The translations under genes and the position numbers were made by a program. DNA of 64,000 bases from positions 62,001 to 126,000 of the forward strand of contig DATMML010000103.1 in NCBI GenBank assembly GCA_035570235.1, written 5' to 3'. Source of the DNA: Vicinamibacteria bacterium. GTDB taxonomy: Bacteria > Acidobacteriota > Vicinamibacteria > Fen-336. The notes below the pieces were generated by a model that worked only from the letters and a program-made list of their open reading frames with translations, ran no database searches and was not told the DNA's origin. Each line of letters begins with the position of its first letter. Positions within the stretch are counted from its first letter, which is position 1. Of this stretch, positions 35,151-51,690 are shown one piece after another.

Positions 35151-36503
35151 CTAGACGGTGGTGGCGGCCCGGGGCGCGGGGGTTGCTACGCCCTCCTGGA
35201 GCCGCGGAGCGAACCGTCGCAGGCTGTCCAGGGCTCGCTGCGCCATGGCCAGGCGCTTGCGCGCCTTGTCCCGGATGCGGACGGGAAGGTCGGGCAGCAA
35301 GCCGAAGGCAATGTTGGTGGGCTGATAGTGGCGGGGATCGCTCCGGGCGATGTAGCGGCCGAGCGCTCCCAGGGCGGTGTCTTCCGGGAAGACGGGGGGG
35401 GCGCCGCCCTGGGACCGGAAGGCGGCGCCGATGCCCGCCATGAGTCCGGAGGCCGCGGATTCGACGTATCCCTCGACCCCCGACATCTGACCCGCGAAGA
35501 AGAGGCCCGGGCGCCGCCGGGTCTCGAAGGTGGGCTCGAGGGTGGCGGGGGCGTTGACGTAGGTGTTCCGGTGGATCATCCCGTGGCGCACGAACTCCGC
35601 CCCCTCCAGGCCGGGGATCATCTGAAAGACGCGCTTCTGCTCGCCCCACTTGAGCTGGGTCTGGAAGCCCACGATCGAGAAATGGCTGGCCGCCAGGTTG
35701 TCCTGGCGGAGCTGGACCACCGCGAAGGGGCGGGCGCCCGTGCGGGGGTCGTTGAGGCCCACCGGCTTCAGGGGGCCGAAGCGCAGGGTCTCGGGGCCCC
35801 GGCGGGCCATGACCTCGAGCGGGAGGCAGCCCTCGAAGAAGAGCTCGTGCTCGAAGTCGTGGAGGGTGGCGCACTCGGCCGCGATCAGGGCCTCCTGGAA
35901 GGCGTGGTACCCAGCCTCCGTAAGGGGGCAGTTCACGTAGTCATCCCCCCCCTTGCCGTAGCGCGAGGCTCGGAAGGTCTTGCTGAAGTCGATGCTCTCC
36001 GCCTCCACGACCGGGCTCACCGCGTCATAAAAGTAGAGGTGGGCCTGGCCCACGAAAGCGGCCACGTCCTGGGCCAGCGCCTCCGAGGTCAAGGGCCCGG
36101 TGGCCACGATCGAGACGGGTGCGTCGGGGATGCGGAGCACCTCGTCCCGATGGATGGTGACCCCGGGTAGGGCGTTCACGGCCGCGGTGACCCTTTCCGC
36201 GAAGAGACCGCGGTCGACCGCGAGCGCACTCCCCGCCGGCACCCGGACCTCGTCCGCCACCCGGATGATCAGGGAGTCCAGCCGCCGCATCTCCTCCTTG
36301 AGGAGGCCGGCCGCCTGGTCGAGCGCGTTCCCCCGCAGGCTGTTCGAGCAGACGAGCTCGGCCAGGTTAGAGGTCTGGTGAACCGGGGTGGGGCGGGTGG
36401 GCCGCATCTCGTGGAGCTCCACCTTTACCCCGCGCCGGGCCAGCTGCCACGCGGCCTCGCTGCCCGCGAGGCCGCCCCCGACGATCGTCACCGGCGAGCT
36501 CAT
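35151..36503 (-). CDS. trmFO: tRNA uridine-54 C5-methyltransferase TrmFO (folate-dependent)
   Basis: The 450-residue protein starts with the FAD motif PVTIVGGGLAGSEAAWQLARRGVKVELHEMRP and contains HQTSNLAELVCSNSLRG, GSALAVDRGLFAERV, YFYDAVSPVVEAESID, FEGCLPLEVMARRGPETLRFGPLKPVGL and a C-terminal GQMSGVEGYVESAASGLMAG. These are diagnostic for TrmFO, which methylates U54 in the T-loop of tRNAs using methylene-tetrahydrofolate and FADH2. The ATG at 36503 begins the FAD fold; TATACT lies nine bases upstream with no Shine-Dalgarno between. Confidence 0.94.
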   Translation of the reverse strand: MSSPVTIVGGGLAGSEAAWQLARRGVKVELHEMRPTRPTPVHQTSNLAELVCSNSLRGNALDQAAGLLKEEMRRLDSLIIRVADEVRVPAGSALAVDRGLFAERVTAAVNALPGVTIHRDEVLRIPDAPVSIVATGPLTSEALAQDVAAFVGQAHLYFYDAVSPVVEAESIDFSKTFRASRYGKGGDDYVNCPLTEAGYHAFQEALIAAECATLHDFEHELFFEGCLPLEVMARRGPETLRFGPLKPVGLNDPRTGARPFAVVQLRQDNLAASHFSIVGFQTQLKWGEQKRVFQMIPGLEGAEFVRHGMIHRNTYVNAPATLEPTFETRRRPGLFFAGQMSGVEGYVESAASGLMAGIGAAFRSQGGAPPVFPEDTALGALGRYIARSDPRHYQPTNIAFGLLPDLPVRIRDKARKRLAMAQRALDSLRRFAPRLQEGVATPAPRAATTV

Positions 36504-50340: not shown

Positions 50341-50641
50341 GGTGCGCCTCACCACCGGTCACGAACTGAGCCTGGATGGTGATCTCCTCGGGATCCTGGA
50401 GGCCCTCTACCGGGAGGTTACCCTGAAGCACCAGCTCCGGGTCAGCTTCGAGGACATGATGCGCGAGATCGAGGGGCTGGTGGCCCAGATGGACGAGGAG
50501 GAGCGCAAGCGCTACCTTGTCGAGAGCCTGTTCCTGAACTCGGTGACCTACGAGAACGAGATGCTGGACGCTTACATGCGGAAGCTCACCGCCGCCAAGA
50601 AGAAGGGGCGGGGGGGACGCGCCGCCGGGAGGTCCCTGTGA
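50333..50641 (+). CDS. Small conserved-looking protein of unknown function
   Basis: A 102-residue, mostly helical, highly charged protein (RVSFEDMMREIEGLVAQMDEEERKRYLVESLFLNSVTYENEMLDAYMRKLTAAKKK). It begins with a short beta-hairpin-like segment VRLTTGHELSLDGDL. There is no signal peptide, metal site or recognised domain. It overlaps the STAS gene by eight bases and the DUF1573 gene by GTGA, so it is clearly made together with them. It may bind the STAS protein or the sigma factor, but nothing in the sequence shows this. Confidence 0.75.
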   Translation: MRRVRLTTGHELSLDGDLLGILEALYREVTLKHQLRVSFEDMMREIEGLVAQMDEEERKRYLVESLFLNSVTYENEMLDAYMRKLTAAKKKGRGGRAAGRSL

Positions 50642-51054
50642 GAAGAGCGTTGACCGCGGTGGCGGTGGTCCTGCTGGTCTCGTCCGCGTGGGCGCAAGAC
50701 AAGGGGGCAAAGGGGGAGGCCGCCCCCAAGGGGCCCAAGATCCGGGTGGAGCCGACCACGTTCGATTTCGGCAAGGCCCTGCCCAACAAGACGCTGGACA
50801 AGGAGTTCAGCCTCCGCAACTTCGGGAACGAGGATCTGGTGATCGAGAACGTCTCCACCACCTGCGGGTGCACGGCCGCCCTCATGGACAGCAAGGTGGT
50901 CAAGCCCGGCGGCACCACCCCCCTGCGCGTCTCCCTGCAGACCCGCGAGTACTCGGGAAAGGTGGAGCGCACGATCCTGGTGCGCTCCAACGACCCCACC
51001 ACCGCCCTCCTCGAGATCAAGGTCCAGGTAACGGTCGTCCCGGCCACGAAGTAG
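50638..51054 (+). CDS. Exported DUF1573-domain protein
   Basis: The 138-residue protein has a signal peptide (LTAVAVVLLVSSAWAQ) and a DUF1573 (ASPM/SPD-2/Hydin-like) immunoglobulin fold: PTTFDFGKALPNKTLDKEFSLRNFGNEDLVIENVSTTCGCTAALM, with the paired cysteines TTCGC typical of the family. These domains are found in periplasmic or surface proteins of unknown role. It ends the sigma/STAS operon and is convergent with the thioredoxin-like gene. Confidence 0.88.
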   Translation: MRRALTAVAVVLLVSSAWAQDKGAKGEAAPKGPKIRVEPTTFDFGKALPNKTLDKEFSLRNFGNEDLVIENVSTTCGCTAALMDSKVVKPGGTTPLRVSLQTREYSGKVERTILVRSNDPTTALLEIKVQVTVVPATK

Positions 51055-51150: not shown

Positions 51151-51690
51151 TCAGCTCGAGCAATCGGAGCCCTCGGCCAAGAGCTCCTCGATGCGGGCGG
51201 CCATCTTGCGTCCGCTCTCCTCGCCCAGGTGGACCTCCCCGACCGTCACCCCACGAATGGTGCCGCAGCGATCCACGAGATAGATCGCCGGCCAATACTC
51301 GTTGCCGAGCGCACGCCAGTACCGGAGATCGTTGTCCAGGAGGTGAGAGAAGTCGAGCTTGTGCTCGCTCACGTGCGCCGCGACGGCGGCCCGGACATGC
51401 TCGTAGGGGAACTCGGGAGAATGAATTCCCACGACGGTAAGGCCGCGCGACCCATAGCGACCAAGCGCATCCCTGACCCAGGGAATCGTGCGGGTGCAGT
51501 TGATTCAGCCGAATGTCCAGACGTCAAGCAGGACCACTCGGCCGCGCAACTCGCGGATGCTCACCGGGGTTCCGACCCAATGCTTGGGGTCCAGGGTCGG
51601 GAACTCGGGTACGTCACGGCGGGCCGGCCCGGCATGGAGGAGCAGAGCGCTCAGAGCCAGGGTGACGGCGGTGGCACTCATCTTTAGCAT
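51151..51690 (-). CDS. Exported thioredoxin-fold selenoprotein (TlpA/DipZ-like redoxin), UGA read as selenocysteine
   Basis: The full 179-residue frame is interrupted only by a UGA at 51507-51505 (residue 62). It begins with a signal peptide (MLKMSATAVTLALSALLLHA), then VGTPVSIRELRGRVVLLDVWTFG, the UGA codon, and INCTRTIPWVRD, TVVGIHSPEFPYE and GNEYWPAIYLVDRCG with cis-Pro134. Relatives have WTYxCINCxRTxP, so UGA stands exactly at the first redox cysteine, giving a U62-x-x-C65 site. A SECIS-like hairpin follows. ATG 51690 is preferred (GGAG six bases upstream); an in-frame TTG exists at 51702. A pseudogene or sequencing error (TGC to TGA) is the alternative, but sequence on both sides is intact. 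It would act in periplasmic thiol redox or peroxide defence. Confidence 0.8.
51466..51492 (-). promoter_or_regulatory. Candidate bacterial SECIS element downstream of the in-frame UGA
   Basis: In the mRNA, UCCCUG (51484-51479) pairs with CAGGGA (51475-51470) around a GGU apex; below it one U is bulged, an A-U pair can form, and CGCA/UGCG (51492-51489, 51469-51466) may extend the stem. A G-U in the apical loop and a bulged U a few pairs below are what SelB recognises in E. coli fdhF. About 26 bases separate the UGA from the loop, inside the usual range. Confidence 0.68.

Follow-up and report, generated by a model that had tools for sequence, protein, structure and literature searches.

A predicted DipZ-like thioredoxin-fold selenoprotein with a UxxC active site in Acidobacteriota

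Selenoproteins that combine a thioredoxin fold with a UxxC active site are well known (PMC1088965, PMC2398784), and a 2026 inventory of 119 families includes the UxxC families cd02966, PF08534 and PF00578, while a DipZ-like or NHL-repeat selenoprotein is absent from it (PMC13188914). Our search of the full-text literature returned nothing relevant on selenocysteine (Sec) in connection with DipZ, nor on a selenoprotein with NHL repeats. In full-length DipZ, a CcdA membrane domain is fused N-terminally to the thioredoxin domain, and we know of no report that NHLRC2 or SOQ1, which carry a related domain, is a selenoprotein. The protein described here is encoded in the window, that is, the whole 64,000-nucleotide stretch of Vicinamibacteria DNA that was analysed. 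It resembles the thiol-disulfide isomerase-like and Trx-like UxxC selenoproteins of the Sargasso Sea and GOS data (cd02966, COG0526; PMC13188914, PMC1088965, PMC2398784) in its thioredoxin fold, in the predicted Sec at the first position of UxxC and in a SECIS-type element within the coding region. Unlike those proteins, as far as their descriptions set them apart, it belongs to the DipZ/NHLRC2-like branch, marked by WTFGUINC, H-x-PE and YWP, and the catalogues do not name this branch. The gene and its elements are as follows.

51151..51690, minus strand: gene for a predicted stand-alone DipZ-like thioredoxin-fold selenoprotein of 179 aa, with Sec at residue 62
51625..51690, minus strand: probable N-terminal signal peptide, hydrophobic, about 22 residues (from the sequence, the hydrophobic N-terminus across family members and a low-confidence model helix at residues 6-17)
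51505..51507, minus strand: in-frame TGA, predicted selenocysteine U62, first residue of the UxxC active site
51496..51498, minus strand: TGC codon of the resolving cysteine C65, invariant in 20 aligned relatives
51470..51484, minus strand: predicted bacterial SECIS hairpin UCCCUG-GGU-CAGGGA, with a 6-bp stem and its loop 26 nt past the UGA
51289..51291, minus strand: cis-proline codon P134 (YWPAIY) of the thioredoxin fold; W133-P134 is invariant

The original prediction had described one minus-strand frame interrupted by a single UGA, and the sequence bears this out: the frame runs from the ATG at 51690 to the stop TGA at 51153-51151 and is open save for the TGA at 51507-51505. The flanks reported for the UGA, WTFG before it and INCTRTIP after it, lie in this one frame, as do the landmarks GIHSPEF and YWPAIYLVD. 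Placement of the UGA at the first active-site cysteine likewise held, whereas the motif attributed to relatives, WTYxCINC, did not, most of them having WTFGCINC. Table-11 ORF calling returned a 93-aa fragment (GTG 51432-51151) as its sole product. Of the 184 window TGAs flanked both before and after by 45 or more open codons, that at 51507-51505 ranked first for joint two-sided coding potential, and the DNA pattern for W[T/A]xxU[I/V]NC matched once in the window and in none of 100 shuffles. The window TGA with the second-best coding-like sequence on both sides lies at 36379 on the plus strand.

Evidence for the fold came from several directions. The protein matched the AhpC-TSA/Redoxin families of Pfam (AhpC-TSA, 42.6 bits against a cut-off of 26), and its closest solved protein by sequence was the C-terminal domain of M. 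tuberculosis DipZ (E 2.7e-26), followed by SOQ1 and NHLRC2. An AlphaFold model, for which the window protein was combined with 19 relatives and Cys substituted for Sec, had a mean pLDDT of 93, placed residue 62 directly before a long active-site helix (63-82) and found its best PDB fold match in the same DipZ domain (E 1.7e-14). WxF(x)(U/C)xNC, H-x-PE and WP are invariant in the aligned relatives, a combination that marks a thiol-disulfide oxidoreductase of TlpA/DipZ type. Together with W133-P134, the Pfam match, the model and the PDB matches agree with the TlpA/DipZ-like thioredoxin first proposed.

Our protein shares with the DipZ C-terminal thioredoxin domain (PDB 2hyx, 5cyy) the position of the CINC site, the cis-Pro region and the H-x-PE motif; DipZ, however, has Cys, and the C-terminal fragment that has been solved is roughly double the length of our protein. 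The 179-aa frame amounts to the thioredoxin domain alone and lacks the CcdA membrane part that full-length DipZ has. The thioredoxin domain of NHLRC2 and SOQ1 (PDB 6gc1, 7djj) is related, but is followed by NHL repeats that our protein does not have. NF041054, the ResA-like WAxxUGC selenoprotein, is also TlpA/ResA-like, but its Sec motif is UGC, and our protein scored 18.3 bits on it against a cut-off of 300; no NCBIfam model reached its own cut-off with the window protein. The DipZ-like branch is thus apparently an unlisted addition to the selenium-using redox proteins, although the family may belong within the thiol-disulfide isomerase-like or the redoxin families, both of them loosely defined.

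We compared the UGA codon across relatives in a class-level survey of 193 genomes and a phylum-level DNA pattern search of 396 genomes. Within the class, the same codon is TGA in our genome and in G012, G014 and G015, and TGC in G008 and G009; the phylum search added one TGA member from another class, G258, and 8 of its 12 matches were due to chance. The Cys/UGA mixture expected among relatives was therefore found, at this one codon. At about 80 loci in named genomes of many phyla, the site is Cys, except for TGA in three Acidobacteriota. In the tree, the Cys copies are nested in a mostly Sec group of Acidobacteriota, and the Sec label requires at least three changes across well-supported branches. 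Thioredoxin matches containing a TGA in G003, G030 (C45), G042 (C437), G075 and G160 were set aside, the TGA being an ordinary terminal stop in each.

These comparisons bear on whether the TGA is real. A Cys codon, TGC or TGT, misread as TGA might be suspected in a draft of 138 contigs (5.72 Mb, 99.6% complete); however, the same codon is TGA, with a matching hairpin, in independent assemblies from different studies. Because independent metagenome assemblies share the codon, a base-calling error is very unlikely, and the probability that we attach to a sequencing or assembly error is vanishingly small. The gene might instead be a pseudogene in which a nonsense mutation leaves the second half untranslated. 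Relatives showed no other disruptive mutations, save in G016, a genus mate of the Sec-form G014 and G015, which has a decayed C-terminal remnant of the gene (L164; C380, about 346-507), and a mere fragment there implies that some lineages can do without the gene. We considered whether G016 had lost its Sec system and rejected this, SelB having been found in that genome. Nevertheless, the identical TGA is preserved across five diverged genomes, which comes near to refuting a pseudogene, and the frame contains neither a frameshift nor a further stop. Purifying selection after the UGA also equals that before it: between G014 and G015, dN was 0.24 and dS 1.09 after the UGA, with a third-position excess, and dN was 0.24 with dS near saturation before it. 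The downstream half is thus translated, and constrained at the protein level just as the upstream half is. With the Sec machinery complete as well, we regard a pseudogene as extremely improbable, and a translated gene with an internal Sec codon as the preferred reading.

Downstream of the UGA, the coding sequence can form a hairpin that agrees with the published model of the bacterial SECIS (PMC13188914). The sequence CCCUGGGUCAGGG is identical in our genome, G012, G014 and G015, all of one order, and gives a 5-7 bp stem with a GGU loop at a distance of 26 nt from the UGA; the Cys genes of G008 and G009 carry CCCUGGCUGAAGG and CCCUGGGUGAAGU, which form no such hairpin. G258 has a different hairpin that likewise satisfies the constraints. 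The Arg codon within the hairpin is AGG in all four of these same-order TGA genes, and AGG accounts for 5.5% of Arg codons in seven window genes. The minimum free energy of our hairpin was -14.0 over 48 nt, no better than that of shuffles (z -0.5 to +0.3), and a single hairpin is expected in 1-20% of synonymous recodings. Its weight as evidence lies accordingly in its conservation among TGA genes and its absence from Cys genes, not in folding energy. An Rfam gathering scan of the whole window gave zero matches.

A search for the Sec machinery recovered every component sought in the same genome: a tRNA-Sec with anticodon tca, SelA (524 bits), SelB (342 bits) and SelD. The selD gene (L128 1501-2421, equivalent to 141313-142233 of contig C103 in this genome, G000) lies outside the window and itself has an in-frame TGA, SCAG-U-ASKLG, in agreement with the known UxxK motif of Sec-containing SelD. 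Since both SelD and the thioredoxin gene are on contig C103, contamination poorly explains their pairing. SelA and tRNA-Sec genes were also found in G012, G014 and G015, and SelB in G258. G008 and G009 retain SelA though their thioredoxin copy has Cys, which suggests a Sec-to-Cys switch without loss of the Sec system.

It might still be argued that the UGA specifies another amino acid, or is a regulated stop that yields a truncated product. Yet UGA serves as an ordinary stop, for example at the end of this very gene, the site aligns with the catalytic Cys, and Sec machinery and hairpin are both there; we consider such decoding highly improbable. Two-sided coding, one-codon Sec/Cys exchange, a conserved hairpin, the Sec machinery and the predicted thioredoxin fold together argue that the internal UGA is almost certainly decoded as Sec and that the gene would encode a selenoprotein. 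The original reading of the UGA as Sec is thereby upheld by the machinery, by the Cys/UGA mixture and by a hairpin seen only in TGA members.

A second architecture, in which the thioredoxin domain is joined to NHL repeats (Pfam NHL, AhpC-TSA), carries UGA in place of the equivalent Cys in three Acidobacteriota genomes:

G040, L029 1498-2943: thioredoxin-NHL protein, WTFC-U-INC
G042, L030 484-1950: thioredoxin-NHL protein, WTSG-U-INC
G449, L196, minus strand: thioredoxin-NHL protein, WTYG-U-INC

Each of these genes has a fitting SECIS-like hairpin, and other Acidobacteriota thioredoxin-NHL copies have Cys at the UGA site; SelB was not found in G449, a genome 75% complete. Overall, the DipZ/NHLRC2-like superfamily of Acidobacteriota quite probably comprises two uncatalogued selenoprotein families, one stand-alone and exported and the other thioredoxin-NHL, with Sec at the same site and with Sec/Cys switches even where the Sec system is kept.

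Regarding mechanism, tRNA-Sec and SelB would decode the UGA, directed by the coding-sequence hairpin just downstream, and the hydrophobic N-terminus makes export of the protein plausible. By analogy with the family, the U62 selenolate may attack disulfides of extracytoplasmic substrates and form a selenenyl-sulfide with C65, which a putative membrane donor of the CcdA/DsbD type would re-reduce. On this proposal the enzyme would work in the periplasm, reducing disulfides in the manner of TlpA and DipZ, rapidly and with tolerance of oxidation; an exported disulfide reductase is a fairly likely assignment.

The gene lies between a DUF1573 gene and an lpxC-like gene, which we take, by eye, to be lpxC. 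The DUF1573 protein (50638-51054, plus strand), encoded convergently with the predicted selenoprotein, has a CGC motif; DUF1573 is a listed UGC selenoprotein family, and the window copy has Cys. In G014, the gene follows what are presumably a sigma factor and an anti-sigma factor gene, and in G008 it follows, about 20 bases away, a presumed gamma-glutamyltranspeptidase gene, all recognised by eye. No gene context is conserved among the relatives; as their neighbours differ, context yields no function.

Because standard annotation splits or loses genes with an internal UGA of this kind, selenoproteins have probably been undercounted in Acidobacteriota, a large phylum that is for the most part uncultured. 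As close relatives with common Sec machinery have this enzyme naturally in a predicted Sec form or in a Cys form, the benefit of Sec over Cys would be directly testable. Finally, our findings would add the DipZ/NHLRC2 branch, which counts a human protein and a plant protein among its relatives, to those that use Sec.
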